Shown in pieces: positions 8,868-62,645 of a stretch of DNA of 64,000 nt. Made by a program: the position numbers and the translations under genes. The notes below the pieces were generated by a model that was not told where the DNA came from, searched no databases, and worked only from the letters and a program-made list of their open reading frames with translations. Source of the DNA: Epinephelus fuscoguttatus (taxonomy: Eukaryota; Chordata; Actinopteri; Perciformes; Serranidae); the NCBI RefSeq assembly GCF_011397635.1, contig NC_064764.1:37360777-37424776 (forward strand), given 5' to 3'. Each line of letters starts with the position of its first letter. Position 1 is the stretch's first letter.

Positions 8868-9794
8868 TTACTTCATTTTGGCTTGACAGAACAACCTCTT
8901 AAGGTGTTTGGAAATTTCTTTCATCTTTACTCCGTACATGATTGGATTAAATAGAGGGTGATACAAAACAATTTGTAAAGTCATTATTAGATGAACAATT
9001 TCTGGAAAAACAGGTTCCAGTCCAACTATAATGACATCATAAACACACAAACAGGAAAGGTTTACCAAAACGATCAAGTGCGGTAAACAAGTCTGTGCAG
9101 CCTTTTTTCTGACTTCTCTACCATTCTGATAAGTTATTAGGAATATCCTAGTGTATGTAAAAAGTATGAAAAGCACAGGGACAAGTGCAACATTAACCAG
9201 TATAATCATATCTCGTACAAAACGTGCTTTTGAGATCACACATTGAAGTTTATAAACTGTGTTGTTACAAAAAACTCCTTTTAAAATAAAGTTACAAAGT
9301 TTTTCATTAGCACTCAAACCAGCTGGCACTGCCATCTGGCAAGCAGGCAGAACCCAAGCTAAAACCAGGAAAATACTGACAGTTGTTTTGGTCATGATAG
9401 TTGGATATTTCAGAGGTTTACATATTGAAACATATCTGTCATAAGCCATGACTGCCAGCAGTAAGAACTCTGAACCACCTAGAGAGTAGAATACATGAAA
9501 CTGAAAGAGACACGCAGAATATGATATGATCTGTTTTTCAGATAAAAAGTCAATCAAAAGCTTTGGGTAGACAGCAGTGCTGAAAAGGACAGAGTTCAGT
9601 AACAAAGCTGCAATGAAAATGTACATAGGCTCATGAAGGTTTTTGTGAACCCAGATAAGGTACACAATAGTGGAATTACTGCATATTATTAGAATATATA
9701 CTATGAACATAATCACAAAATACACATATCTGTACTTGTCCACTTCGACATGCCCACCAAAAGTTATATATGTTACATTGAACTCATCATCCAT
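8868..9794 (-). CDS. Odorant receptor, array copy A
   Basis: 308 residues, intact. Motifs: N-glycosylation NVT (6-8), TM1 about 23-48, HEPMY at TM2 start (54-58), Cys95 before TM3, MAYDRYVSIC (116-125), TM4 about 138-160, extracellular-loop-2 cysteines C167, C176 and C185, KAAQTCLPH (231-239), TM7 with NPIMY (283-287). The frame is open 13 codons further upstream, but those residues are predicted to lie in a 94-nt 5'UTR intron (9811-9904), and the MDDEFN start matches all sister genes and MEKLN of the plus-strand copy. The role is odour detection in olfactory neurons; ligand unknown. Small basic C-tail (FCQAKMK). Confidence 0.95.
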   Translation of the reverse strand: MDDEFNVTYITFGGHVEVDKYRYVYFVIMFIVYILIICSNSTIVYLIWVHKNLHEPMYIFIAALLLNSVLFSTAVYPKLLIDFLSEKQIISYSACLFQFHVFYSLGGSEFLLLAVMAYDRYVSICKPLKYPTIMTKTTVSIFLVLAWVLPACQMAVPAGLSANEKLCNFILKGVFCNNTVYKLQCVISKARFVRDMIILVNVALVPVLFILFTYTRIFLITYQNGREVRKKAAQTCLPHLIVLVNLSCLCVYDVIIVGLEPVFPEIVHLIMTLQIVLYHPLFNPIMYGVKMKEISKHLKRLFCQAKMK

Positions 9795-9904
9795 TAAGGT
9801 TGTTAAAAAACTGAACAGACAGATTATACACAAGGAAATAACTGTGAAAAGAGCTGTTACTGAATAAACATGTAACCTTGACTGGAGAGTCTTTTTTCAA
9901 TTAC

Positions 9905-15534: not shown

Positions 15535-16461
15535 TCAGACAATTTTGGCTTGAAAGAACAACGTCTTGAGGTGTTTAGAAATTTCTTTCATCTTTAGCCC
15601 ATACATGATTGGATTAAAAAGAGGGTGATACATTATGATTTGGAGAGACATTATCAACCTTACAGTTTTGGAAAAGTCAGATTCCATCTGAGCCCTAATG
15701 ACATCATATGCACACAGACAGGAGAAGTTGATTAAAACTATCAGATGAGGTAAACATGTCTGTGCAGCTTTCTGTCTGACTGCTTGACTACTTCGATAGG
15801 TTATTAGAAGTATTCGGGTGTATGTAAAAAGGATGAAAAGCACAGGGACAAGTGCAATATTAAGCAAAATTACCATATCATGTATAATTTGTACTCTTGA
15901 GATCACACACTGAAGTTTATAAACTGTGTTGTTACAAAAAACTCCTTGTAAAATAAAGCCACAGATTTTTTTATTGGCACTCAAACCAGCTGGCACTGCA
16001 ACCTGGCAAGCAGGCAGAACCCAAGCTAAAACCAGGAAAATACTGACAGTTGTTTTGGTCATGATAGTTGGATATTTCAGAGGTTTACATATTGAAACAT
16101 ACCTGTCATAAGACATGGCTGCCAACAGTAAGAACTCTGAACCACCTAAAGAGTAAAACATGTGAAACTGAAAGAGACACGCAGAATATGATATGATCTG
16201 TTTTTCAGATAAAAAGTCAATCAAAAGCTTTGGGTAGACAGCAGTGCTGAAAAGGACAGAGTTCATTAACAAAGCTGCAATGAATATGTACATAGGCTCA
16301 TGAAGGTTTTTGTGAACCCAGATAAGGTACACAATAGTGGAATTACTGCATATTATTAGAACATATACTATGAACATAGTCACAAAATAAACATATCTGT
16401 ACCTGTCCACTTCGACATGCCCACCAAGAGTTATATATGTTACATTGAATTGATCATCCAT
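15535..16461 (-). CDS. Odorant receptor, array copy B
   Basis: 308 residues, intact, ending FFQAKIV with a TGA stop. Same architecture as copy A: NVT glycosylation site at 6-8, MSYDRYVSIC at the TM3 end (Ala changed to Ser in the MAYDRY motif), KAAQTCLPH before TM6 and NPIMYG in TM7. It is the most diverged of the five minus-strand array copies; for example, the IC3/TM6-TM7 segment reads YRSSQAVRQ and MESDFSKTVRLIMSLQII, which resembles the plus-strand OR at 61728 more than its neighbours. The open frame extends 35 codons upstream, but a 93-nt 5'UTR intron (16478-16570) is predicted there, so the start is at 16461. Confidence 0.95.
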   Translation of the reverse strand: MDDQFNVTYITLGGHVEVDRYRYVYFVTMFIVYVLIICSNSTIVYLIWVHKNLHEPMYIFIAALLMNSVLFSTAVYPKLLIDFLSEKQIISYSACLFQFHMFYSLGGSEFLLLAAMSYDRYVSICKPLKYPTIMTKTTVSIFLVLAWVLPACQVAVPAGLSANKKICGFILQGVFCNNTVYKLQCVISRVQIIHDMVILLNIALVPVLFILFTYTRILLITYRSSQAVRQKAAQTCLPHLIVLINFSCLCAYDVIRAQMESDFSKTVRLIMSLQIIMYHPLFNPIMYGLKMKEISKHLKTLFFQAKIV

Positions 16462-16570
16462 TAAGCTTGTTAAACAACTCAACAGACAGATTATACACAA
16501 GGAAATAGCTGTGAAAAGAGCCGTCACTGAATAAAAATGTAACCTTGACTGGAGAGTCTTTTTCATTTAC

Positions 16571-20945: not shown

Positions 20946-23125
20946 GAGCCAGTTGAAGGCACAGTATACATGCAGAAGTGTGCACATGATCAGGATAGTA
21001 CCACCTCCGCCTCATTTTGGGCCAGGAAAAACCTTTGATGTTGGCTACTACCTCAGTTGGCACTTGAGGCCCAGCCCAGGACAGCATTTAGCATTGGGCC
21101 TCTGGCAGTTCCATGAGATGTGCTCTGGGCTCTGCTACACCCTGGCCACTTTCAGCAAGATGAAGGAGAGGGAGCTAACGCAGACCAAAAAGCTGCACTT
21201 GAGCACAGTGTGAAGACCACAACCAATGGCCGACCAGCACATACGTTATGCACCTGCATGAGAGGAAATAACTCAACAACAGCACAGGGCAGTATTTTGT
21301 GACTGTCGTTCAAAAAGGGAAATCAGGAGATCACCATGACCCTATTAGCCAATTAGCAGCACATTAACAACACAATCCAGTGTCGAGGGAACAAAGCATA
21401 TTTACTGTGCACCAGTGAACAACACAAACCATCGCAAAATGTTTTTACTTATGAGCTCAATGGCTAAAGAATAATAATCCTACTTCATGTAACAAGTTTG
21501 TTTTGGTCAATTCCCACTTGACTTTAACCATTTGTTTTGTTTCCTCATTTCGGTTTCTTTTCTCATGCAATGAGCTGAACTGCCAGTCAGAGTGATGTTG
21601 TTCACCCGTGTGCTCCACCATCCCTGACACCAATTCAAGGCGCTGAATCAACTGAAAAAAAGTCAACAAGAGCCAACAGTGTGGGACACACTACAAAGAC
21701 TGGGGTGATGCTCACTGCTGGCCAACCAACAGCTTGATGCGTCAGAGTCTTAAGGATGATGTAGATCCATTCTGCATTCCAGGTAGTATTGTTTATCGCT
21801 TTCCTTGGAAAATGAAGCTTTCCTCTGAGGTCAAAGGAGTAACAGAGATACAGTTCACTCGCCTGCATAGTCAAACATTGGAGAGAGCCTTTGGCAAAGT
21901 CCCACACACACCCAAATCACTTTTGCAAGTAAATTCATCTCTGCCTGTTGTTTTATTCACAATTTAAGGAACTGCCTAACAAATATTTTGCTAAGGAGGA
22001 AGCTGCACATGGATAGAATTGCCAGGATTGATAAGATGATGATGGCACAACACAGTATAATCATAATGGCTGCTGGAGATAGAGGGCCCAGACAACAAAA
22101 ATAGAGAAGTCACCACCAAGCAGAGTGTGTGAGAGGTCTGGATTAGAAATTCAAAGGGAACGACAGAGATGGGGCCTGGATGATGGAGATCAGCAGGGCA
22201 GAAAAGCTTGGGTAGGTGTCCTGGGGACTGGACACCAGCATAGCAGGAGACCTTAGGGAAACGGCCTGGGGACTGGCCAGTGGCAGAGATCATGCTGACT
22301 AGAAGGTAGAGCAGATGATGATTAGGAGGACAACCACAAGACAGGGCCAATGGATGGAGTTGCTAAGGATGGAGCACAGAAGCCAGGGTACATCCTCCAT
22401 TTGTCAGGATCATGAGGAGGAGTTTGATTGGTCAGAAGATGATCAAGGCACTATACAATTACAAGTCCATTTACCATTCAATCTATTTAACTCAAACCAC
22501 TTCACCTAAAGGTGAAACATCTTGGTTTGCATCGCGCCTTGGCCTCCTCTGCCAAACCTTTGGGCTCCCGCCAGACCACTACACCGTCCATTCACTGGGC
22601 ATAGGAGCAGCAACAACCGCTGCATGTATAGCTCCTGTCTCAACAATCAAGGCTATGGGCCGAGGGACATCACAAGCCTATGAGAGTGACTATCGGCCTG
22701 AGACTTAAGCCATCCTAGATGCTCAAAAAGCCATGAGTGCTCTTAAAAATTGCTGGCTGACAGAATAAATGTATAACATATCTGCTGGGTTCTCTTCATT
22801 AAGTTAATTGTATGTTTATAATTTAGCACTGTTTAGATTGAATTAGCTTCATTGCAATTACCTAATCTAATTTGGCTCTCAGTTAAACTGCTCCTCTGCT
22901 GACTCTTCCATATAAGACTCCGGAAGGCCAGAGATGGTTTCCTTGCATGCGGGTTGAGGGCAGAGAGGTGTGCTCTCTCTGCCTTCGGCTTTCCATGTCG
23001 GTGCATGGAAGGTGGAGCCATACTGCCAAAATTGCAATGGAAATAAGATTTTCTTTGACTACAGTGGTCCGAACTGAAATAAAACTCTTAACACCAAATT
23101 ACAATACAATATTGAAGCTTGTAAA
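20946..23125 (+). mobile_element. Compound repeat block, copy in unit B
   Basis: This block is present in each later OR unit. At 21790-21930 it holds MKLSSEVKGV...TLERAFGKV, a degraded Harbinger-type transposase C-terminus. At about 22510-22705 lies a tyrosine-recombinase C-terminal fossil of DIRS or Crypton type (FGLPPD, then GAATTAA and IKAMGR); it is broken. The 5' part (20946-21300) is unrecognised. At 22916-23125 there is an extra segment with an AATAAAAC signal, absent from the 36.4-kb copy. Confidence 0.55.
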
Positions 23126-29110: not shown

Positions 29111-30037
29111 TTACTTCATTTTGGCTTGACAGAACAACCTCTTAAGGTGTTTGGAAATTTCTTTCATCTTTAATCCGTACATGATTGGATTAAATAGAGG
29201 ATGATACAAAACAATTTGTAAAGTCATTATTAAATGCACAATTTCTGGAAAAACAGGTTCAAGTCCAATTATAATGACATCATACACACACAAACAGGAA
29301 AAGTTTAACAAAACTATCAAGTGCGGTAAACAGGTCTGTGCAGCCTTTCTTCTGACTTCTCTACCATTTTGATAAGTTATTAGGAATATCCTAGTGTATG
29401 TAAAAAGTATGAAAAGCACAGGAACAAGTACAACATTAACCATTATAATCATATCTCGCACAAGGCGTGCTCTTGAGATCACACACTGAAGTTTATAAAC
29501 TGTATTGTTACAAAAAACTCCTTTTAAAATAAAGTTACAAAGTTTTTCATTAGCACTCAAACCAGCTGGCACTGCAACCTGGCAAGCAGGCAGAACCCAA
29601 GCTAAAACCAGGAAAATACTGACAGTTGTTTTGGTCATGATAGTTGGATATTTCAGAGGTTTACATATTGAAACATACCTGTCATAAGACATGGCTGCCA
29701 ACAGTAAGAACTCTGAAGAACCTAAAGAGTAAAACATCTGAAACTGAAAGAGACACGCAGAATATGATATGATCTGTTTTTCAGATAAAAAGTCAATCAA
29801 AAGCTTTGGGTAGATAGTAGTGCTGAGAAGGACAGAGTTCAGTAACAAAGCTGCAATGAATATGTACATAGGCTCATGAAGGTTTTTGTGAACCCAGATA
29901 AGGTACACAATAGTGGAATTACTGCATATTATTAGAATATATACTATGAACATAATCACAAAATACACATATCTGTATTTGTCCACTTCGACATGCCCAC
30001 CAAAAGTTATATATGTTACATTTAATTCATCATCCAT
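29111..30037 (-). CDS. Odorant receptor, array copy C
   Basis: 308 residues, intact, very close to copy A along its whole length. Motifs at the same positions: NVT 6-8, MSYDRYVSIC 116-125 (Ser instead of Ala, as in copy B), ECL2 cysteines 167/176/185, KAAQTCLPH 231-239, NPIMYG 283-288. Differences from A include TTIYPKLL against TAVYPKLL in TM2 and GSSEF against GGSEF in TM3, residues likely to face the ligand pocket. Start at 30037 because a 94-nt 5'UTR intron (30054-30147) is predicted upstream. Confidence 0.95.
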   Translation of the reverse strand: MDDELNVTYITFGGHVEVDKYRYVYFVIMFIVYILIICSNSTIVYLIWVHKNLHEPMYIFIAALLLNSVLLSTTIYPKLLIDFLSEKQIISYSACLFQFQMFYSLGSSEFLLLAAMSYDRYVSICKPLKYPTIMTKTTVSIFLVLAWVLPACQVAVPAGLSANEKLCNFILKGVFCNNTVYKLQCVISRARLVRDMIIMVNVVLVPVLFILFTYTRIFLITYQNGREVRRKAAQTCLPHLIVLLNFSCLCVYDVIIIGLEPVFPEIVHLIMTLQIVLYHPLFNPIMYGLKMKEISKHLKRLFCQAKMK

Positions 30038-30147
30038 TAAGGTTGTTAAAAAACTGAACAGACAGATTATACACAAGGAAATAACTGTGAAAATAGCCGT
30101 TACTGAATAAAGATGTAACCTGTACTGAAGAGTCTTTTTTCATTTAC

Positions 30148-30769: not shown

Positions 30770-32907
30770 GAGGCCCAGCCCAGGACAGCATTCAGCATAG
30801 GCCAAAGCTTCTGGCAGTTCCATGAGATGTGCTCTGGGCTCTGCCACACCCTGGCCACTTTCAGCAAGATGATGGAGAGGGAGCTAACCCAGACCAAAAA
30901 GCTGCACTTGAACACTGTGTGCAGACCACAGCCAATGGCCTACCAGCACATACGTTATGCACCTGCATGAGAGGAAATAACTCCACAACGGCAGAAGGCA
31001 GTATTTTGTGACTGTTGTTCAAAAAGGGAAATCAGGAGATCATCATGACCCTACTTAGCCAATTATCACTAGCCTGAGTGTCAGACTTAAGCTCCCAGAA
31101 CCTTCAGTCTGACATCGCCTCCATTGAAGACGATTTACAAGGGGGATCAATGACTCACCCAGAATCTGACGCCATTAGTATCCATGCCTCGGGGGTGCCG
31201 AAAACAAGCGAGGATTGCCCGTTTAAAATGTCTCTGTCATTGTGCATGCCCAGCTGCATCGCTGATAAATCCAGTTTAGCAGCTCCCTTAATTTGGTCCT
31301 CCATTAACGCGAGTAATGGCGAAATACCTCGATAGCATCATTAATGTGGTCTGTAGGATCTGTAGCGGTCGCCATTAGCGTGGCGCTGATTGGCTAATCG
31401 CTAGACCCGCCCCCACCCCCGGCGTTCATTGGTCTGTCCATCGTTTGAACGAGATAAATCGCAAATTCACTGCAGTATGCCAGACCAGAGATGCAAGCCT
31501 ACTCAGTTGAGTGGGCGGGGTCTATGGTCTGGAACCACGCTAAATTAGCACATTAACAACACAATCCAGTGTTGAGAGAACAAAGCATATTTACTGTGCA
31601 TCAGTGAACAACACAAACCATCACAAAATGTTTCTACTTATGACTGGCTAAAGAATAATAATCCTACTTCATGTAACAAGTTTATTTTGGTAAATTCCCA
31701 CTTGACTTTAACCATTTGTTTTGTTTCCTCATTTCGGTTTCTTTTCTCATGCACTGAGCTGAACTGCCAATCGGAGTGATGTTGTTCACCCGTGGGCTCC
31801 GCTGTCCCTGACACCAATTCAAGGCACTGAATCACCTGAAAAATGTCAACAAGGGTCAACAAGAGCCAACAGTGTGGGACACACTACAAAGACTGGGGTG
31901 ACGCTCACTGCTGGCCAACCAACAGCCTGATGCATCAGAGTCTTGAGGATGATGAAGATCCAGTCTGCATTCCAGGTAGTATTGTTTATCGCTTTCCTTG
32001 GAAAATGAAGCTTTCCTCTGAGGTCAAAGGAGTAACAGAGATACAGTTCACTCGCCTGCATAGTCAAACATTGGAGAGAGCCTTTGGCAAAGTCCCACCC
32101 ACACCCAAATCACTTTTGCAAGTAAATTAATCTCTGCCTGTGGGTTTATTCACAATTTAAGGAACTGCCTAACAAATATTTTGGTAAGGAGGAAGCTGCA
32201 CATGGATAGGATTGCCAGGATGGATAAGATGATGATGGCACAGCACAGTATAATCATAATGGCTGATCGGGATGCTGGAGATAGAAGGCCCAGACAACAA
32301 AAATAGAGAAGTCACCACCAAGCAGGGTGTGTGAGAGAGGTCTGGATTAGAAATTCAAAGGGAACGACAGAGATGGGGCCTGGATGATGGAGATCAGCAG
32401 GGCAGAAAAGCTTGGGTAGGTGTCCTGGGGACTGGACACCAGCATAGCAGGAGACCTTAGGGAAACGGCCTGGGGACTGGCCAGTGGCAGAGATCATGCT
32501 GACTAGAAGGTAGAGCAGATGATGATTAGGAGACAACCACAAGACAGGGCCAATGGATGGAGTTGCTCAGGATGGAGCACAGAAGCCAGGGTACATCCTC
32601 CATTTGTCAGGATCATGAGGAGGAGTTTGATTGGTCAGAAGATGATCAAGGCACTATACGAGTACAAGTCCATTTACCATTCAATCTATTTAACTCAAAC
32701 CACTTCACCTAAAGGTGAAACCTCTTGGTTTGCATCGCGCCTTGGCCTCCTCTGCCAAACCTTTGGGCTCCCGCCAGACCACTACACCGTCCATTCACTG
32801 GGCATAGGAGCAGCAACAACCGCTGCATGTATAGCTCCTGTCTCAACAATCAAGGCTATGGGCCGAGGGACATCACAAGCCTATGAGAGTGACTATCGGC
32901 CCGAGAC
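30770..32907 (+). mobile_element. Compound repeat block, copy in unit C (left part)
   Basis: Paralogue of 20946-22740. Carries the Harbinger remnant at 32010-32130 and the broken tyrosine-recombinase fossil at about 32720-32907. It is interrupted by a hAT-type MITE (31069-31542) and, at its TTAA, by the 32912-36194 element; it resumes at 36199. Confidence 0.6.
31069..31542. mobile_element. hAT-type MITE
   Basis: Absent from the paralogous sites at 21350 and 56128. Ends CTAGCCTGAGTGTCAGAC and GGTCTGGAACCACGCTA are imperfect inverted repeats. Flanking 8-mers AATTATCA (31061-31068) and AATTAGCA (31543-31550) differ at one base and fit an 8-bp hAT duplication. Internally there are CCAAT and GC-rich words but no domain. 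The frame at 31078-31335 has no recognisable content. Confidence 0.65.
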
Positions 32908-32911
32908 TTAA

Positions 32912-33264
32912 AGGCTAAGTTCGGTTTTTTGACACCTGGACCTTATTTCTAGGATTAAATACGCTCGTAGACTCACCCAGACAATTTTGGTGGAGCTCAG
33001 AGCCGTTTTCGAGCAATTTAGATCCATCTGACGGCGTTTTCTCTCATGCCATAGAAGCAGACGGGGCCAAAAATCGAAGCCCCTAAATTAGACATTATCT
33101 GCTGCAAAACTCGCTCATTTCACCTACATTTTATAAATGAATGGCCAGTGTTATCGCCATGTCAGCTCAACTTCGTTGTTATGGTCATCCGGGGCTTTAC
33201 AAGGATGGATAACTTTTGGTGATGTCATAGACGTGCGCCGCAGGAGCGCAGCTGAGTAGAGCCG
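32912..33264. repeat. Left 353-bp terminal inverted repeat
   Basis: Pairs with 35842-36194. By eye fewer than about a dozen substitutions separate the arms. The inner end holds TGATGTCA (a one-off CRE) and a GC-rich stretch, 50-100 bp before the ballast gene start, so the promoter probably lies in the repeat itself. Confidence 0.9.
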
Positions 33265-33309
33265 CTGTTGTTGCTAGGATACATGGCTACACGGCTTTTC
33301 TTGTGCAAC

Positions 33310-34264
33310 ATGGCGGAATATTTATCCGATGTAGAAGTGTCTGACGACGACTTTGAGTATGATGGATGTCCGTATCGTTTTGAGCCAGAATACACCGATG
33401 AGGAGCTATTTGAAAGGAGGATGCAGAGGGAAAGAGCTGAACAGCTGGCCAGAGAACAAGCAACCACTGCACGTCCACGAGTGGGGGCTAACTGGTGGTG
33501 TTGTTGTGGACACTGCACGGCAATGGTAACAGAGGAGGAGTGCCTTTGCTGCTCAGAGTGGGACTTGAGACCAGAGGAAACACGTATTGATGCCCCCCAA
33601 AATACGTGTCTCACTACACTCGAAGATTTTTCTGCCATGACAAACCGGGCTGTGGTAGAGACTTTTTTTCATGTCCCGAGAGTCAACTGGCAGACGCAGC
33701 CGAAGCCAGCAGGACCGAACGGCCAACTTTCGATAGAGTAAGTAGCCCATACAAATGCAAAAAGGGTATATTTTCTATGAGTGTTTGCTTTATAAGTAAA
33801 TAACTTGGGTATGGTGTCTTTACTTTGTAGTTATGTATGATCTGGAATGTAGACAGCAGACTCAGGCTATTACACAGAAAAAATAATGTAGAAACACGGT
33901 TGACAGTTTCATAGATATGAGTTTGGCATTTAGGAAATTTAGCTCAGTGTGGTTTATTAAAAAAAAAATCCATTGATAATCACTCCTGAATATCTTTTCT
34001 AACTTCTGTTTACTTTGTGCTAATTCTCTGTCCTGTAGGCAATGCAGACTGGTGGCATACCGGATTGTTATAGAGTGGGCACTTGCAGGGGAACACCTTG
34101 GACCTGGGAACAGGAGGATAATTCCTAGCTGCATTGTCTCTGCAATCAGAGGAAAATACCCCTCTCCCACAGGCAGTTATGTGGGATTCACTGAGGCTCA
34201 GGATGCTAATCAGCATCTGATTAGCAAGACAAAAGACTCAATTTTTCTTGGACAGTTTGTGTGA
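33310..34264 (+). CDS. P2X7 ballast-domain-like protein (2 exons: 33310-33737, 34039-34264)
   Basis: Predicted 217 residues. Exon 1 ends at GA|GTAAGT; exon 2 starts after TCCTGTAG; the 301-nt intron joins in frame as [14 protein letters not shown]. An acidic N-terminus and an E/R-rich helix (30-50) precede WWCCCGHC (62-69), ECLCC (77-81), CLTT (100-103), IIPSC (170-174) and [12 protein letters not shown] (182-193). These match, in order, the Cys-rich zinc and guanine-nucleotide-binding cytoplasmic domain of vertebrate P2X7 (CITT, ILPSC, FPKSEGQYSGF in the human receptor). No transmembrane segment, so it is not a channel; it would be a free soluble ballast domain. Start chosen at MAEYLS (ACATGG context); 14 more codons upstream are open. 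No frame damage. AATAAA at 34497. Function unknown. Confidence 0.8.
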
Positions 34265-34624
34265 AGGCTGTTACATTTGCTTTGTTTTTGCTATTGTCTT
34301 TGTATCTATTTCTATGCATATGTGTAAACACACAAATACTTATATTATTGTACATAATTGCCTTTTGTTTTTTGACAATTCATTTATGACCACTATTCAA
34401 TACAAAGTCATAAAACAAACTTGTTTTATTTTTTCCCATTATAAGAGTCAGTACGAAATATAACAACAGCAGAGTCCAGACATAACACAAGTGTAAAATA
34501 AAAACATATTTTAGCACACAACAGAAAAATAGTGAAAAAAAAGAAAACTTTTCAAAAACTTCCAAAACAAGATAAACAAACAAAAAGAAAAAAAACTAGA
34601 GTTGCAAGGCCCAAGAGGCAATGT
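34265..34624. other. 3' region of the ballast gene
   Basis: AT-rich, with a polyadenylation signal AATAAA at 34497-34502. Nothing else recognised. Confidence 0.4.
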
Positions 34625-34872
34625 CAAAAATACAGAAAGGCAAGCAGCACTCAAGTGTGTATCTTACATTTGTTCTTCTATTTGTCTCACACGGCAGGCA
34701 CAGGATCAGCAACAGAAACGTGTTGCAAATTTTGTCAGTGTTTGTAACACACACTGAGGAAGACTAAAGTCAATACACGTTTCTGTTATTGATCCCGTGC
34801 CTGCCGTGTGAGACATATAGAAGAACGTATGTAAGATGTACACTTGAGTGTTGCTGGCCTTTCTATATTTTC
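34625..34872. repeat. Long imperfect hairpin (about 97-bp arms) inside the TTAA element
   Basis: Arms 34625-34722 and 34776-34872 are inverted copies, including CTCACACGGCAGGCAC and its complement GTGCCTGCCGTGTGAG, separated by a 53-base loop. It lies between the 3' ends of the convergent ballast gene and the antisense THAP gene. It could be a nested foldback MITE, a terminator-like structure or a source of hairpin RNA; no target duplication was found. Confidence 0.8.
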
Positions 34873-35655
34873 TTGCATAGAAAATAAAAATCAGACATCA
34901 TGACTGTCACAAAAAAAAAAACTAATATGAGGCAGCTCTAAAAGACCGGCCATGTTGGAGCCAAAGCAAAGTATTTCCCTGATAGTGATCGTTTTGTGCT
35001 GGTTGTTTTCTGAGGTGGACTGGTGAGCACAAGAGTAAGTGCAGAGGCCAAATGAGATCCAGACAATCCTGTAGGCTCCTTAGCTGCTCTGTGTTGGCTT
35101 TTTATTGGAGTGGATTGTGGGAGTGCTTAAAGCTCTGATTCAAGAAGACATTCAACACTGGCACTTCCCTAAAGAAAAAAAAAAGTGTTATACACAGCGT
35201 CATCTACAGCAACTTTTACCTTACTCATCTGAGTGTGCCAATGTACCCACGTCCTTTAGTGCACTTTATTCTACGTTTTTGTACATTTTAGATTGATCAA
35301 AAACGGTCGAAACAACTGACAATTAGTTTTGGAGAAAGCATATGACTACTTGTAAGTGTGCGCTAACAATGCAGACCCATGGTGATTGCAGCTCGAGTCA
35401 CAATTTATTGCCTGCAGAGAATAACCATATCATATGCATTGCGAGTTAGTTTTTCAAAAACTAGCATGGACTAGAGTAAATTATATTGCGTTACAGTGCA
35501 GTATTCTTTTGCAGGAATGTATTTTTAGTAGGCTACTGCCGCTCAGAAATAGGTCGTGAAGATAGCTATTCATTTTATACAAGGAGCTGTATACGCTGGC
35601 CGACGTGCACTGGTTATCGACCAATATTATTACATCTTCAAAAGAAATGCATTAC
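34873..35655. other. Interior of the TTAA element, largely unrecognised
   Basis: Between the hairpin and the THAP exon. Contains a strong pyrimidine tract plus AG (minus strand, about 35170-35185) that would suit a splice acceptor for a downstream transposase exon. The sequence after it (STPIKSQHRAAKEP, then TSPPQKTTSTKRSL in one frame) is low-complexity and not diagnostic. Confidence 0.35.
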
Positions 35656-35810
35656 CTCCGCTGCGTCTGTTTTGCCCTCTGAAACAATCGGGATGGCATT
35701 CCTCCTGAGGTACTGACGCTGAGCTTCCTGGCCTTTTGCCTGTGGAAGGTGAACTTTGTCCAACTAGTCATTTTGTTTGGACAAAGTGGAAAAACGCAAT
35801 GACGAACCAT
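35656..35810 (-). pseudogene. THAP-domain exon, antisense end of the TTAA element, damaged
   Basis: Minus strand starts MVRHCVFPLCPNKM and continues WTKFTFHR, the beginning of a THAP zinc finger (C5, C10, then Phe-His-Arg). After FHR the reading frame no longer resembles THAP; in the next frame GQEAQRQYLRRNAIPIVSEG follows, so a small deletion near 35740 is likely. It ends in a donor GGAG|GTAATG at 35656/35655. Kolobok and P-type transposases begin with THAP domains, so this is probably the first exon of the element's transposase. A possible later exon follows the acceptor TTTCTTTAG (minus) near 35175. The catalytic part is absent. Confidence 0.6.
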
Positions 35811-35841
35811 GTTTGTAGCCGTGTAGCTCCTAGCCTAGCGC

Positions 35842-36194
35842 CGGCTGTACTCAGCTGCGCTCCTGCGGCGCACGTCTATGACGTCACCAAAAGTTACCAA
35901 TCCTTGTAAAGCCCCAGATGACCATAACAACGAAGTTGAGCTGACATGGCGATAACACTGGCCATTCATTTATAAAATGTAGGTGAAATGAGCGAGTTTC
36001 GCAGCAGATAATGTCTAATTTAGGGGCTTCGATTTTTGGCCCCGTCCGCTTCTATGGCATGAGAGAAAACGCCGTCGGATGGATCTAAATTGCTCGAAAA
36101 CGGCTCCGAGCTCCACCAAAATTGTCTGGGTGAGTCTACGAGCGTATTTAATCCTAGAAATAAGGTCCAGGTGTCAAAAAACCGAACTTAGCCT
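35842..36194. repeat. Right 353-bp terminal inverted repeat
   Basis: Pairs with 32912-33264. Contains a perfect cAMP-response-type palindrome TGACGTCA at 35879-35886, about 70 bp upstream of the antisense THAP start. Confidence 0.9.
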
Positions 36195-36198
36195 TTAA

Positions 36199-36479
36199 GC
36201 CATCCTAGATGCTCAAAAAACCATGAGTGCTCTTAAAAATTGCTGGCTGACAGAATAAATGTATAACATATCTGCTGGGTTCTCTTCATTAAGTTAATTA
36301 TACGTTTATAATTTAGCACTGTTTAGATTGAATTAGCTTCATTGCAATTACCTAATCTAATTTGGCTCTCAGTTAAACTGCTCCTCTGCTGACTCTTCCA
36401 TATAAGATGAAAGATGATATGATGAAAAGCTTGAAAACACTTGTCAGTTGCACTCAGGTCCTACACAGTACCAATCTCC
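36199..36479 (+). mobile_element. Compound repeat block, copy in unit C (right part)
   Basis: Continuation of 30770-32907 after the TTAA element (GCCATCCTAGATGC onward). Compared with unit B (22916-23125) and unit D (50140-50355) it lacks about 210 bp after CCATATAAGA, where GATGAAAGAT joins directly to ATGATGAAAAGC. Confidence 0.6.
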
Positions 36480-45284: not shown

Positions 45285-46211
45285 TTACTTCATTTTGGCT
45301 TGACAGAACAACCTCTTAAGATGTTTGGAAATTTCTTTCATCTTTAATCCATACATGATTGGATTAAATAGAGGATGATACAAAACAATTTGTAAAGTCA
45401 TTATTAAATGCACAATTTCTGGAAAAACAGGTTCCAGTCCAACTATAATGACATCATACACACACAAACAGGAAAAGTTTACCAAAACGATCAAGTGCGG
45501 TAAACAAGTCTGTGCAGCCTTTTTTCTGACTTCTCTACCATTTTGATAAGTTATTACAAATATCCTAGTGTATGTAAAAAGTATGAAAAGCACAGGAACA
45601 AGTGCAAGATTAACTAGCATAATCATATCTCGTACAAGGCGTGCTCTTGAGATCACACACTGAAGTTTATAAACTGTATTGTTACAAAAAAACCCTTTTA
45701 AAATTAAGTTACAAAGTTTTTTATTAGCACTCACACCAGTTGGCACTGCCATCTCGCAAGCAGGCAGAACCCAAGCTAAAACCAGGAAAATACTGACAGT
45801 TGTTTTGGTCATGATAGTTGGATATTTCAGAGGTTTACATATTGAAACATACCTGTCATAAGCCATGACTGCCAACAGTAAGAACTCTGAAGCAGCTAAA
45901 GAGTAAAACACCTGAAACTGAAAGAGACACGCAGAATATGATATGATCTGTTTTTCAGATAAAAAGACAATCAAAAGCTTTGGGTAGACAGCAGTGCTGA
46001 GAAGGACAGAGTTCAGTAACAAAGCTGCAATGAATATGTACATAGGCTCATGAAGGTTTTTGTGAACCCAGATAAGGTACACAATAGTGGAATTACTGCA
46101 TATTATTAGAATATATACTATGAACATAATCACAAAATACACATATCTGTATTTGTCCACTTCGACATGCCCACCAAGAGTTATATATGTTACGTTGAAT
46201 TCATCATCCAT
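45285..46211 (-). CDS. Odorant receptor, array copy D
   Basis: 308 residues, intact. Same motifs as copy A (NVT 6-8, MAYDRYVSIC 116-125, KAAQTCLPH 231-239, NPIMYG 283-288). Private changes sit in or near the transmembrane core: LLIVFLSEK (Asp82 to Val, in an otherwise invariant IDFLSEK), SLAASEF in TM3, PACEMAVPTGVS at the TM4/ECL2 edge and KGFFCN in ECL2. Compared with copy E I count about 19 amino-acid differences, more than the flanks would predict. Start at 46211; predicted 93-nt 5'UTR intron 46228-46320. Confidence 0.95.
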   Translation of the reverse strand: MDDEFNVTYITLGGHVEVDKYRYVYFVIMFIVYILIICSNSTIVYLIWVHKNLHEPMYIFIAALLLNSVLLSTAVYPKLLIVFLSEKQIISYSACLFQFQVFYSLAASEFLLLAVMAYDRYVSICKPLKYPTIMTKTTVSIFLVLAWVLPACEMAVPTGVSANKKLCNLILKGFFCNNTVYKLQCVISRARLVRDMIMLVNLALVPVLFILFTYTRIFVITYQNGREVRKKAAQTCLPHLIVLVNFSCLCVYDVIIVGLEPVFPEIVHLIMTLQIVLYHPLFNPIMYGLKMKEISKHLKRLFCQAKMK

Positions 46212-46320
46212 TAAGGTCGTTAAAAAACTGAACAGACAGATTATACACAAGAAAATAACTGTGAAAATAGCCGTTACTGAATAAAGATGTAACCTGTACT
46301 GAAGAGTCTTTTACATTTAC

Positions 46321-47146: not shown

Positions 47147-48770
47147 CAGTACAGGCCAAAAGTTTGGACACACCTTCTCATTCAATGCGTTTTGTTTATT
47201 TTCATGACTATTTACATTGTAGATTCTCACTGAAGGCATCAAAACTATGAATGAACACATGTGGAGTTATGTACTTAACAAAAAAGGTGAAATAACTGAA
47301 AACATGTTTTATATTCTAGTTTCTTCAAAATAGCCACCCTTTGCTCTGATTACTGCTTTGCACACTCTTGGCATTCTCTCCATGAGCTTCAAGAGGTAGT
47401 CACCTGAAATGGTTTTCCAACAGTCTTGAAGGAGTTCCCAGAGGTGTTTAGCACTTGTTGGCCCCTTTGCCTTCACTCTGCGGTCCAGCTCACCCCAAAC
47501 CATCTCGATTGGGTTCAGGTCCGGTGACTGTGGAGGCCAGGTCATCTGCCGCAGCACTCCATCACTCTCCTTCTTGGTCAAATATCCCTTACACAGCCTG
47601 GAGGTGTGTTTGGGGTCATTGTCCTGTTGAAAAATAAATGATCGTCCAACTAAACGCAAACCGGATGGGATGGCATGTCGCTGCAGGATGCTGTGGTAGC
47701 CATGCTGGTTCAGTGTGCCTTCAATTTTGAATAAATCCCCAACAGTGTCACCAGCAAAACACCCCACACCATCACACCTCCTCCTCCATGCTTCACAGTG
47801 GGAACCAGGCATGTGGAATCCATCCGTTCACCTTTTCTTCTCACAAAGACACGGCGGTTGGAACCAAAGATCTCAAATTTGGACTCATCAGACCAAAGCA
47901 CAGATTTCCACTGGTCTAATGTCCATTCCTTGTGTTTCTTGGCCCAAACAAATCTCTTCTGCTTGTTGCCTCTCCTTAGCAGTGGTTTCCTAGCAGTTAT
48001 TTGACCATGAAGGCCTGATTCGCGCAGTCTCCTCTTAACAGTTGTTCTAGAGATGGGTCTGCTGCTAGAACTCTGTGTGGCATTCATCTGGTCTCTGATC
48101 TGAGCTGCTGTTAACTTGCGATTTCTGAGGCTGGTGACTCGGATGAACTTATCCTCAGAAGCAGAGGTGACTCTTGGTCTTCCTTTCCTGGGTCGGTCCT
48201 CATGTGTGCCAGTTTCGTTGTAGCGCTTGATGGTTTTTGCGACTCCACTTGGGGACACATTTAAAGTTTTTGCAATTTTCCGGACTGACTGACCTTCATT
48301 TCTTAAAGTAATGACGGCCACTCGTTTTTCTTTAGTTAGATGATTGATTCTTGCCATAATATGAATTTTAACAGTTGTCCAATAGGGCTGTCGGCTGTGT
48401 ATTAACCTGACTTCTGCACAACACAACTGATGGTCCCAACCCCATTGATAAAGCAAGAAATTCCACTAATTAACCCTGATAAGGCACACCCGTGAAGTGG
48501 AAACCATTTCAGGTGACTACCTCTTGAAGCTCATGGAGAGAATGCCAAGAGTGTGCAAAGCAGTAATCAGAGCAAAGGGTGGCTATTTTGAAGAAACTAG
48601 AATATAAAACATGTTTTCAGTTATTTCACCTTTTTTTGTTAAGTACATAACTCCACATGTGTTCATTCATAGTTTTGATGCCTTCAGTGAGAATCTACAA
48701 TGTAAATAGTCATGAAAATAAAGAAAACGCATTAAATGAGAAGGTGTGTCCAAACTTTTGGCCTGCACTG
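47147..48770 (-). mobile_element. Tc1-type DNA transposon, nearly complete
   Basis: 1624 bp, ends CAGTACAGGCCAAAAG and CTTTTGGCCTGCACTG, flanked by TA (47145-47146, 48771-48772); the empty paralogous site is CACATACGTTATGC at 21239. Terminal inverted repeats extend about 270 bp and reach into the 3' end of the transposase. One frame break in the transposase, so nonautonomous now. Confidence 0.93.
47309..48357 (-). pseudogene. Tc1 transposase, one frameshift
   Basis: DDE transposase that would cut and paste the element at TA sites. Start MARINHLTKEKR at 48357; two helix-turn-helix parts (QSVRKIAKTLNVSPSGVAKT, then TTVKRRLRESGL) with a GRPR-type hinge (RKGRPRVTS); catalytic Asp in WSDESKFEIF; second Asp in QQDNDPKHTS; Glu in SPDLNPIE, i.e. 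the DD34E layout. The frame changes at about 47755: MVWG is followed by VLLVTL in one frame and CFAGDTVGDLF in the other, consistent with loss of one base. The C-terminus MERMPRVCKAVIRAKGGYFE is normal. Confidence 0.93.
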
Positions 48771-50534
48771 TACGTTCTGCGCCTGCATGAGAGGAAATAA
48801 CTCCACAACAGCACAGGGCAGTATTTTGTGACCGCCGTCCCTGACACCAATTCAAGGCGCTGAATCAGCTGAAAAAAGTCAACAAGGGTCAACAGTGTGG
48901 GACACACTACAAAGACTGGGGTGATGCTCACTGCTGACCAACCATGAGCTTGATGCGTCAGAGTCTTAAGGATGATGAAGATCCACTCTGTATTCCAGGT
49001 AGTATTGTTTATGGCTTTCCTTGGAAAATGAAGCTTTCCTCTGAGGTCAAAGGAGTAACAGAGATACAGTTCACTTGCCTGCATAGTCAAACATTGGAGA
49101 GAGCCTTTGGCAAAGTCCCACCCACACCCAAATCACTTTTGCAAGTAAATTCATCTCTGCCTGTTGTTTTATTCACAATTTAAGGAACTGCCTAACAAAT
49201 ATTTTGGTAAGGAGGAAGCTGCACATGGATAGGATTGCCAGGATGGATAAGATGATGATGGCACAGCACAGTATAATCATAATGGCTGATCGGGATGCTG
49301 GAGAAAGAAGGCCCAGACAACAAAAATAGAGAAGTCACCACAAAGCAGGGTGTGTGAGAGGTCTGGAGTAGAAATCCAAAGGGAATCAGAGAAGATGGGG
49401 CCTGGATGATGGAGATCAGCAGGGCAGAAAAGCTTGGGTAGGTGTCCTGGGGACTGGACACCAGCATAGCAGTAGACCTTAGGGAAACGGCCTGGGGACT
49501 GGCCAGTGGCAGAGATCATGCTGACTAGAAGGTAGAGCAGATGATGATTAGGAGGACAACCACAAGACAGGGCCAATGGATGGAGTTGCTCAGGATGGAG
49601 CACAGAAGCCAGGGTACATCCTCCATTTGTCAGGATCATGAGGAGGAGTTTGATTGGTCAGAAGATGAGCAAGGCACTATACGAGTACAAGTCCATTTAC
49701 CATTCAATCTATTTAACTCAAACCACTTCACCTAAAGGTGAAACCTCTTGGTTTGCATCGCGCCTTGGCCTCCTCTGCCAAACCTTTGGGCTCCCGCCAG
49801 ACCACTACACTGTCCATTCACTGTGCATAGGAGCAGCAACAACCGCTGCATGTATAGCTCCTGTCTCAACAATCAAGGCTATGGGCCGAGGGACATCACA
49901 AGCCTATGAGAGTGACTATCGGCCTGAGACTTAAGCCATCCTACATGCTCAAAAAGCCATAAGTGCTCTTAAAAATTGCTGGCTGACAGAATAAATGTAT
50001 AACATATCTGCTGGGTTCTCTTCATTGTTAATTGTATGTTTATAATTTAGCACTGTTTAGATTGAATTAGCCTCATTGCAATTACCTAATCTAATTTGGC
50101 TCTCAGTTAAACTGCTCCTCTGCTGACTCTTCCATATAAGACTCCGGAAGGCCAGAGAGGCTTTCCTCGCATGTGGGTTGAGGGCAGAGGGGTGTGCTCT
50201 CTCTGCCTTCGGCTTTCCACGTCGGTGCATGGAAGGCGGAGCCATACTGCCAAGTATCAAATTGCAATGGAAATAAGATTTTCTTTGACTAAAGTGGTCC
50301 GAACTGAAATAAAACTCTTAACACCAAATTCAGACAATACAATATTGAAGCTTGTAAAGACATGATGAAAAGCTTGAAAACACTTGTCAGTTGCACTCAG
50401 GTCCTACTCAGTACCAATCTCCCTCATTGTCTCCCTGAAATTATGGGCTCTATTTTCCTGGTGCAGCGCAGGGTGGCGCAGAGTGGCGAACCTGCACACG
50501 GCACCTTTGTGGTTCTTAACAGTGGGGGCCCTGC

Positions 50535-54019: not shown

Positions 54020-54946
54020 TTACTTCATTTTGGCTTGACAGAACAACCTCTTAAGGTGTTTGGAAATTTCTTTCATCTTTAATCCGTACATGATTGGATT
54101 AAATAGAGGATGATACAAAACAATTTGTAAAGTCATTATTAAATGCACAATTTCTGGAAAAACAGGTTCCAGTCCAACTATAATGACATCATACACACAC
54201 AAACAGGAAAAGCTTAACAAAACTATCAAGTGCGGTAAACAAGTCTGTGCAGCCTTTTTTCTGACTTCTCTACCATTCTGATAAGTTATTAGGAATATCC
54301 TAGTGTATGTAGAAAGTATGAAAAGCACAGGAACAAGTGCAAGATTAACCATTATAATCATATCTCGTACAAGGCGTGCTCTTGAGATCACACATTGAAG
54401 TTTATAAACTGTGTTGTTACAAAAAACTCCTTTTAAAATAAAGTTACAAAGTTTTTTATTAGCACTCAAACCAGCTGGCACTGCAACCTGGCAAGCAGGC
54501 AGAACCCAAGCTAAAACCAGGAAAATACTGACAGTTGTTTTGGTCATGATAGTTGGATATTTCAGAGGTTTACATATTGAAACATATCTGTCATAAGCCA
54601 TGACTGCCAACAGTAAGAACTCTGAGCCACCTAAAGAGTAAAACACCTGAAACTGAAAGAGACACGCAGAATATGATATGATCTGTTTTTCAGATAAAAA
54701 GTCAATCAAAAGCTTTGGGTAGACAGCAGTGCTGAGAAGGACAGAGTTCAGTAACAAAGCTGCAATGAATATGTACATAGGCTCATGAAGGTTTTTGTGA
54801 ACCCAGATAAGGTACACAATAGTGGAATTACTGCATATTATTAGAATATATACTATGAACATAATCACAAAATAAACATATTTGTATTTGTCCACTTCGA
54901 CATGCCCACCAAAAGTTATATATGTTATATTTAATTCATCATCCAT
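54020..54946 (-). CDS. Odorant receptor, array copy E
   Basis: 308 residues, intact. Motifs as in copy A: glycosylation site reads NIT (6-8), MAYDRYVSIC 116-125, ECL2 cysteines 167/176/185, KAAQTCLPH 231-239, NPIMYG 283-288. Private changes: YKYVY before TM1, LSTYTRIF at the end of TM5 and IVLLSFSCL in TM6. Start at 54946; predicted 93-nt 5'UTR intron 54963-55055. It is the last minus-strand array member; its downstream (higher-coordinate) neighbours are transposons. Confidence 0.95.
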   Translation of the reverse strand: MDDELNITYITFGGHVEVDKYKYVYFVIMFIVYILIICSNSTIVYLIWVHKNLHEPMYIFIAALLLNSVLLSTAVYPKLLIDFLSEKQIISYSACLFQFQVFYSLGGSEFLLLAVMAYDRYVSICKPLKYPTIMTKTTVSIFLVLAWVLPACQVAVPAGLSANKKLCNFILKGVFCNNTVYKLQCVISRARLVRDMIIMVNLALVPVLFILSTYTRIFLITYQNGREVRKKAAQTCLPHLIVLLSFSCLCVYDVIIVGLEPVFPEIVHLIMTLQIVLYHPLFNPIMYGLKMKEISKHLKRLFCQAKMK

Positions 54947-55055
54947 TAAGGTTGTTAAAAAACTGAACAGACAGATTATACACAAGGAAATAACTGTGAA
55001 AATAGCCGTTACTGAATAAACATGTAACCTGTACTGAAGTGTCTTTTACATTTAC

Positions 55056-60965: not shown

Positions 60966-61727
60966 AATTATGGGGCATAATGTGATATCAAAGCCTGTAT
61001 TTTTTCCCAGGTGAGGCCCATGTCATTTCTTCATTTGATTTTGCTATGGCTGAGTCACGGTTACCAGTTTGTTGAGTTAGTGGAGTGTTCACTATCATCA
61101 CACACTGTATTTGGGTCAGAAGAAACTGGGAGATGTGGGCAACAACTGAGCCACATGCCAATTGCTTTCTGTGATATTTTGTGCCCAAAGCTGCATCTGA
61201 GGTTCATACTGAGTTTTAGCAGAGAGAGTGGAGCATATCTGACTGTCCTCAAGGAGTACTGGCTGACTTCTGTGTTCCCAAATCAGAACAGTCAGGTAAT
61301 CATCTGAAAAGGTCAGGGCCCCCGAACAAAAAACACATTCGATAAAAAATTAACTTAAAGTACCACAGAAAAAAAAATATAGATGTGCAAGCAATGCATC
61401 ATTTTTTTCTTTGGTGTTGTGCACAGAAAATATGACATAACCTAAGCAAACAAAGTTGAACAACATTTTTGAGTTCAGGCCTCTAGAGTATGATCAAGTT
61501 GTTTATATGTAAGTTTCTTTGGAGAGTTTAATGAGATCCATGGAGGTTGAGGCAGTCTGATAAAAACTTCCTGAAGACTCAAAAACATCACAGATCTAAT
61601 TTCTGTGTTTGTCAAACTTCACCAGTATAAGTCAAGATCAAGTAACGAATAAAACAAGCTGATGCAGGTTATTTGAAACTTCTTGTAATGTAACTGTTGT
61701 ATTCATTAACATTTTTAGACAGCTATA
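60966..61727. other. Upstream region of the plus-strand OR
   Basis: An open frame at 61011-61307 has no recognisable domain. The stretch 61480-61575 (GTTCAGGCCTCTAGAGTATG, ATGAGATCCATGGAGGTTGA) is homologous to the upstream block of the minus-strand ORs. A polypyrimidine-poor acceptor TTTTTAG lies at about 61713-61719, ten bases before the ATG, so a spliced 5'UTR is likely here too. Confidence 0.5.
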
Positions 61728-62645
61728 ATGGAAAAATTAAATGTCACATATATAACTTTTGATGGGCATGTGGAAGTGCACAAATATAGATACCTTTATT
61801 TTGTGATCATGTTTATAGCCTATATTCTGATAATTTGTTGTAATTCCACTATTGTGTGCATCATAGTGATTCACAAATCCTTCCACGAGCCTATGTACAT
61901 CTTCATTGCAGCTTTGTTAATCAACTCTGTTCTTTTCAGCACCGCTATCTACCCAAAGCTTTTAATTGACTTTTTATCTGAAAAACAGATCATATCATAT
62001 TCAGCGTGTATCTTTCAGTGGTTTATATATTACTCTCTAAGCAGTGCAGAATTTTTCCTGTTGGCAGTCATGGCTTATGACAGGTATGTTTCTATATGTA
62101 AACCTCTGCAATATCCAATTATCATGAGAAAAAAAACTGTCAGTATTTTCCTTGTTTTAGCTTGGGTTCTGCCTCTTTGTCAGAGTTCAGTGGGAGCTGT
62201 ACTGAGTGCTTACAAAAAACTCTGTAACTATACTTTCAAAGGAATAATTTGTAACAGCACAGTTTCCAAACTTCATTGTGTAAGGTCAAGAATTCTGAAT
62301 ATATATGGCTTGGTTGTTTTTGTAGGTGTTGTACCTCTCCCTGTACTCTTCATACTTTTTACATACATCAGGATATTTATAATATCCTATCGAAGTAGTA
62401 CAGAAGTCAGGAGAAAAGCTGCACAGACCTGTTTACCCCACCTGCTGGTTCTAATCAACTTTTCTTGTTTGAGTACATATGATGTACTTCTAGCTCGACT
62501 GGAAACTGATTTTTCCAAAACTGTGCGTTTAATAATGTCTTTACAAGTGATTTTGTATCACCCTCTCTTTAATCCAATCATATATGGACTGAAAATGAAG
62601 GAAATTTATAAACACCTGAGGAGGCTGTTCTGTAAAATAGTCTAA
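61728..62645 (+). CDS. Odorant receptor, array copy F (opposite strand)
   Basis: 305 residues, intact, the only plus-strand OR. It begins MEKLNVTYITFDGH, aligning with MDDEFNVTYITFGGH of the minus-strand set and confirming their start. Motifs: NVT (5-7), HEPMY (53-57), MAYDRYVSIC (115-124), KAAQTCLPH before TM6, NPIIYG in TM7. Many private changes in ECL2 (KKLCNYTFKGIICN) and TM5 (GLVVFVGVVPLPVLF). The C-tail is shorter (RRLFCKIV). It may be an older member of the subfamily. Shares LETDFSKTVRLIMSLQ with the same region of copy B. Confidence 0.95.
   Translation: MEKLNVTYITFDGHVEVHKYRYLYFVIMFIAYILIICCNSTIVCIIVIHKSFHEPMYIFIAALLINSVLFSTAIYPKLLIDFLSEKQIISYSACIFQWFIYYSLSSAEFFLLAVMAYDRYVSICKPLQYPIIMRKKTVSIFLVLAWVLPLCQSSVGAVLSAYKKLCNYTFKGIICNSTVSKLHCVRSRILNIYGLVVFVGVVPLPVLFILFTYIRIFIISYRSSTEVRRKAAQTCLPHLLVLINFSCLSTYDVLLARLETDFSKTVRLIMSLQVILYHPLFNPIIYGLKMKEIYKHLRRLFCKIV

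Follow-up and report, generated by a model that had tools for sequence, protein, structure and literature searches.

Kolobok transposons of the Kol0 lineage have been described as coding regularly for a second protein, KolX, which has the ballast fold, beside a transposase that is a DDD/E enzyme with a C/DxxH signature, and Kolobok termini are reported to follow a 5'-RR/YY-3' rule (Kojima and Bao 2022, PMC9587614, in the passages drawn on here). The same passages derive P2X7 from the joining of a P2X4-like gene to KolX, and treat the gene nanor as a likely domesticated KolX (PMC9587614). Here we describe a 3283-bp element (32912-36194) with 353-bp inverted ends and TTAA on both sides, carrying a two-exon ballast gene, in a 64,000-nucleotide stretch of the Epinephelus fuscoguttatus genome (C13:37360777-37424776, NC_064764.1; the whole stretch is called the window). 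With high confidence, we assign this element to the Kol0 lineage as a non-autonomous, internally deleted Kolobok copy whose ballast gene is KolX. It is a further member of a kind of transposon that is already described, and the link to the ballast domain has itself been published.

All searches covered this single genome (1.05 Gb, 26 contigs). Two further copies of the same family, C17 (C17:9036117-9040141, 4025 bp) and C9 (C9:45313983-45319845, 5863 bp), were compared with the window copy (C13), along with sister families represented chiefly by the loci L061, L075 and L068.

The element and its ballast gene

The features of the window copy and its empty sister sites are as follows.

32908..32911, no strand: left TTAA target-site duplication (sequence and empty sites)
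32912..33264, plus strand: left terminal inverted repeat (TIR), 353 bp, starting AGGCTAAGTTCGG (inverted-repeat search)
33310..33737, plus strand: KolX exon 1, 428 nt, with six of the seven ballast cysteines (translation, Pfam, alignment)
33738..34038, plus strand: GT-AG intron, phase 2, whose position and donor are shared by L061 and L075
34039..34264, plus strand: KolX exon 2 with the stop codon and the seventh cysteine; the final ~15 residues are in another frame than in C9
34627..34871, no strand: internal imperfect inverted repeat, 110 nt, 85%, between the two convergent genes; also in C17 and C9
35652..35810, minus strand: THAP exon remnant of the transposase gene, lacking 142 nt that C9 and C17 retain
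35842..36194, minus strand: right TIR, 353 bp (inverted-repeat search)
36195..36198, no strand: right TTAA target-site duplication (sequence)
22497..22910, plus strand: empty sister site with a single TTAA at 22705-22708 (flank matches)
49723..50134, plus strand: empty sister site with a single TTAA at 49931-49934 (flank matches)

The inverted arms (32907-33264 and 35842-36199) span 358 nt at 97% identity and, minus the outer TTAA and one base, give the 353-bp near-identical ends that a preliminary description of this DNA had reported; a weaker extension of the repeat reaches 33291 and 35814 (95% over 387). The termini of the window copy read AG...CT, in agreement with the 5'-RR/YY-3' rule for Kolobok. 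The TTAA duplication and the empty sister sites of that description were likewise recovered. The left flank of the element matches 22497-22708 (99.1%) and 49723-49934 (98.6%), the right flank matches 22705-22910 (98.5%) and 49931-50134 (96.1%), and at each empty site the left- and right-flank matches overlap by exactly the four TTAA bases. As two sister sites in the tandem array are empty, this is a clean insertion at TTAA that is younger than the local duplications.

The KolX gene begins with an ATG 45 nt inside the inner end of the left TIR, and its spliced product of 217 amino acids matches PF20478 (P2RX7_C) over residues 41-194 (E 2.6e-12, 47.5 bits; cut-off 23.5 bits), so that the ballast domain is complete. 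PF20478 was the only family found by Pfam in this protein, with no P2X ion-channel domain. The motifs WC-x-C-x2-C, CC, C and C align in order with P2X7, a second alignment agreeing but leaving the CC unpaired, and we take them to correspond to the seven conserved cysteines given in the cited part of PMC9587614. A phmmer search against solved structures reached P2X7 only at E 0.018, ranked under an FGFR2 chain (E 0.0089), and the Pfam profile is therefore used as the domain evidence. Exon 1 of the C9 copy, scanned alone, gave no Pfam match. The donor GAGTAAGT and the position of the intron recur in the sister families L061 and L075, making it very likely from sequence conservation that the intron is real. 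A two-exon gene with a P2X7-type ballast domain, as first proposed, is thus present in the window. Its description as an open gene holds for the complete ballast domain but not for the C-terminus, where a net 2-nt difference from C9 precedes the last ~15 residues; the C9 KolX stops earlier than that of the window, as do those of L061 and L075, and C17 is altered there in a different way.

Same-family copies and sister families

Searching the genome with the left end (40 of 133 candidates scored, so that the number of same-family copies is a lower bound) yielded at least 47 matches, six of which, at 97-100% identity, form the three elements in the window, C17 and C9. The earlier suggestion of a mobile family that carries a ballast domain was supported, as inverted ends, TTAA flanks and KolX occur together in all three of the same-family copies found. 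C9 and C17 also retain, at the right end and on the minus strand, an intact 90-amino-acid THAP exon (PF05485, E 1.6e-14); the 52-amino-acid remnant in the window gave no match in a Pfam scan. A zinc-ribbon exon, for which Pfam gave no match over the cut-off, is left in C9 and also, with a stop codon, in C17. On account of its ends, its KolX gene, its THAP exon and its relatives, the window element is classed as a deletion derivative. C9 contains an additional 1.9-kb block (L010 3656-4956), which has inverted repeats beside its own TTAA and looks like a nested element. THAP exons are abundant in this genome, with at least 150 matches (150 of 983 candidates scored), most of them 45-50% identical to the exon of this family.

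Sister families show what the deleted part of the element may have contained. L075 (7.1 kb) is flanked by TTAA, has 364-nt ends at 95% identity and both KolX exons, and carries on the opposite strand a THAP exon (E 4.8e-17), the zinc-ribbon exon, the stretch GDGRSDSPG and a stretch with the second D and FDPWH; its 296-amino-acid open reading frame (ORF) had no Pfam match. L061 (4.1 kb) is also TTAA-flanked, with 16 of 20 terminal bases alike and a 175-nt inner repeat at 97%, and holds KolX exon 1 from residue 32 on (the first 31 being unmatched), exon 2 and an opposed THAP exon. L068 is a degraded locus of 6.2 kb with 127-nt ends at 79.5% and the same convergent layout, and the DPWH and GD.R.DSPG stretches are present in both L075 and L068.

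The remaining left-end matches are 69-84% identical, and among seven such places fetched (L012-L018), KolX exon 1, in whole or in part, lies between the ends in six (L012-L017) and is missing from L018. These six are short derivatives of ~0.8-1.5 kb with related ends and KolX exon 1 or part of it beside one end. A conserved ballast reading frame among the copies, as anticipated in the preliminary description, is seen between families and in 10 other listed KolX matches (73-76% identity), which are unbroken over exon 1, but the four short derivatives that were read (L013, L014, L016 and L017) all share a frame break near '...NRAVFF'.

A complete relative has two convergent genes, each of which begins shortly inside its own copy of the near-identical inverted repeat: KolX is read from the left, and the transposase, with its THAP, zinc-ribbon and DDE parts, from the right end. 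Because these genes start so close to near-identical ends (with start codons 45 and 31 nt in from them), the TIR may act as the promoter of both. The transposase would cut at the inverted ends, insert the element at TTAA and duplicate the TTAA in doing so, and the window copy would be movable only by a transposase supplied in trans. KolX is probably zinc-binding, and its fold and conservation suggest that it is most likely an accessory factor of transposition.

Genome-wide layout, selection and the surroundings of the element

A genome search with the PF20478 profile (150 of 228 candidates scored) gave at least 82 matches, of which the pair at C6:43142617 and C6:43140182 probably represents the P2X7 gene; a search with the KolX protein gave at least 157 matches (150 of 3364 candidates scored). 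Two DDE queries, the first taken from the zinc-ribbon match L067 and the second from the ballast locus L047, returned 39 and 37 matches at 56 distinct loci. Of the 82 listed ballast matches, 27 have a Kolobok DDE piece no more than 10 kb away; all 27 are convergent with that piece, two of them sharing one DDE locus. Random placement of the DDE pieces gave a mean of 0.076 nearby ballast matches and a maximum of 2 in 1000 trials, under a model that takes contigs as equal in length and leaves element clustering outside; the second DDE query also came from a ballast locus. With the first query alone, 19 of 39 matches have a ballast sequence within 10 kb, against 0.16 expected, and again every one (19/19) is convergent, this count being based on the 82 PF20478 matches and 147 KolX matches, apart from the three top KolX matches and those unlisted. 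In the 30 ballast loci L019-L048, DDE pieces were found in three (L024, L036 and L047), and no TTAA-ended inverted repeat was found at 15 of 20 matching bases within the ~1.5 kb of flank available for each.

Several observations weigh against the assignment to Kolobok. No DDE core was found in any of the three same-family copies, either by a motif scan or among the DDE-query matches, and we therefore infer the transposase that moved the window copy from the relatives. In those relatives, the DDE motifs were recognised partly by the published C/DxxH rule; Pfam gives little support for the DDE part, with MULE at E 2.7e-5 and DDE_Tnp_ISL3 at E 6.2e-4, neither reaching its cut-off, and the L068 ORF has no Pfam match over the cut-off. 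The ends of L068 yielded no TTAA pair, and L069, which has THAP and zinc-ribbon exons, showed neither a KolX match nor a TTAA-ended repeat in the 7.5 kb fetched. In the genome-wide comparison, 55 of the 82 listed ballast matches lie farther than 10 kb from any DDE piece (these include the window copy, C9, C17, L061 and P2X7), and 30 of the 56 DDE loci are likewise more than 10 kb from any PF20478 match.

The preliminary description had read the ballast gene as cargo, and a host gene (nanor or P2X7-like) picked up by a TTAA transposon would fit the sight of a nearly complete KolX in an element without a transposase core. This reading is contradicted by the presence of KolX at the same place and in the same orientation in L061, L068 and L075, opposite the transposase gene in relatives, by the position of the intron, which L061 and L075 share with the window copy, by the convergence of all 27 nearby pairs, and by the purifying selection between families given below. 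As KolX is also already known as the second protein of Kol0 elements (PMC9587614, in the part cited), capture of a host gene is very improbable, and KolX is regarded here as a regular gene of the transposon.

The ratio of nonsynonymous to synonymous substitution rates (dN/dS) of KolX was estimated between the window copy and four others (L061, L013, L014 and L068). Against L061 it is 0.243 in exon 1 and 0.133 in exon 2; against L013 and L014, two broken copies compared only outside the break, it is 0.183 and 0.201; and against L068 it is 0.189 in exon 2, exon 1 being saturated. The value between L061 and L068 (0.09) comes with a dS of 3.1 and is not reliable. For the THAP exon of C9, dN/dS is 0.32 against L061, 0.28 against L069 and 0.15 against L068 (dS 2.0). 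These comparisons show that KolX is under purifying selection between families (dN/dS 0.13-0.24), so that KolX probably serves the transposon in some way. The three recent copies give mixed signs. Private changes in exon 1 number one synonymous (C13) and six nonsynonymous (three in C17 and three in C9), which are small numbers; C17 has frame-altering indels in exon 1 too, and no constraint is visible in this exon among the three. The three copies do not differ over the first 165 nt of exon 2, while varying columns make up ~2.2% of the element outside its ends and gene, and 1.4% of the intron; the exon 2 identity could reflect constraint or chance. KolX looks to have been maintained while the families were active.

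Recruitment of the window KolX for a host function, with the element ends as relics, would account for a frame that is open across the whole ballast domain with seven cysteines and for the identity of exon 2 beside ~2% varying non-coding columns, and the same idea has been published for nanor (PMC9587614, in the part cited). The identity of exon 2, however, is common to C9 and C17 and not peculiar to the window copy, whose C-terminus is frame-shifted; the exon 1 changes and the C17 indels, small as the numbers are, point the other way, and the insertion is younger than the duplications that left two sister sites empty. Domestication of this copy is accordingly about as improbable as capture. 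KolX-like proteins have also been reported from a small number of piggyBac families. A piggyBac-type element of this sort shares the TTAA duplication and is the most remote of the three readings, as the KolX-like proteins there reportedly lack most of the seven cysteines (PMC9587614, in the part cited) that are present here, and the AG...CT termini, the THAP exon and the layout of the relatives are Kolobok-like; no piggyBac match was found in the few ORFs scanned by Pfam, though the element as a whole was not searched with a piggyBac profile.

The Kolobok copy lies in a tandem cluster of olfactory-receptor-like ORFs (8868-9896, 15535-16566, 29111-30139, 45285-46310 and 54020-55045, minus strand; 61719-62645, plus strand), and the empty sister sites sit within duplicated stretches of this cluster; the one such ORF checked (29114-30139) matched PF13853 (E 7.9e-39). 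An ORF in the left flank (32519-32911) seemed to resemble a tyrosine recombinase, but a Pfam scan found no match. Two overlapping ORFs at 47309-48465 (minus strand) may be a broken Tc1/mariner-type transposase. The right TIR contains TGACGTCA, a CRE-like motif, with three sites in the window against 0.55 expected. It was given no weight, since it is absent from L061, L075 and L013.

The one-exon ballast lineage and comparison with known systems

A second ballast lineage, of one exon and ~170 amino acids, was observed at L020, L027, L030-L032, L035-L037 and L070-L074, several with open frames. Some of its copies are convergent with DDE pieces that belong to a different Kolobok subfamily. In four of the five loci fetched with flank, the one-exon ballast lies opposite a Kolobok DDE piece, two of the five (L073 and L074) having been chosen since the DDE piece had already been seen; in the fifth (L071), the DDE piece is just outside the fetched stretch. 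The P2X7 ballast has no intron and short linkers, as in the one-exon lineage, which makes a one-exon KolX a possible donor of the P2X7 tail. This reading is lowered by an unrooted tree of 13 ballast sequences that places P2X7 on the two-exon side of the split (support 0.81), and the one-exon donor remains a hint. We therefore put forward only tentatively, and with more doubt than belief, the combined proposal that there are two KolX lineages, that the P2X7 tail may derive from the one-exon lineage, and that most stand-alone 'P2X7-like' genes in genomes of this kind would be Kolobok genes or their relics and not host genes.

The evolutionary idea of the preliminary description, that mobile elements spread ballast domains, had been in print since 2022 (PMC9587614, in the part cited). 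A literature search found no paper joining 'P2X purinoceptor 7-like' with transposition. The window provides a clear single-genome case for a published but little-mentioned link, in which the tail of the P2X7 immune receptor is a transposon protein, and adds to it counts, the convergent layout, a conserved intron and selection estimates. The ballast domain as a regular Kolobok protein helps explain the many stray copies of the P2X7 tail in this genome; genes annotated as ballast-only or 'P2X7-like' may be transposon genes, and KolX genes can litter a genome densely.

Compared with Kol0 Kolobok, represented by Kolobok-1_XT, the family described here appears alike in its TTAA duplication, its 5'-RR/YY-3' termini and a KolX with a predicted ballast fold, and its complete relatives in this genome code for transposase and KolX; the window copy differs in that its DDE core and a portion of its THAP exon are missing. 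This likeness was drawn through the published description. The window KolX shares the domain (PF20478) and cysteine pattern of the P2X7 ballast, but is without the P2X channel domain, has an intron inside the ballast and has longer linkers. With nanor and nanor-like proteins (PMC7016195, in the part cited) it shares a stand-alone ballast with a short N-terminal part, a likeness taken from published descriptions; unlike them, it lies inside a young transposon copy.

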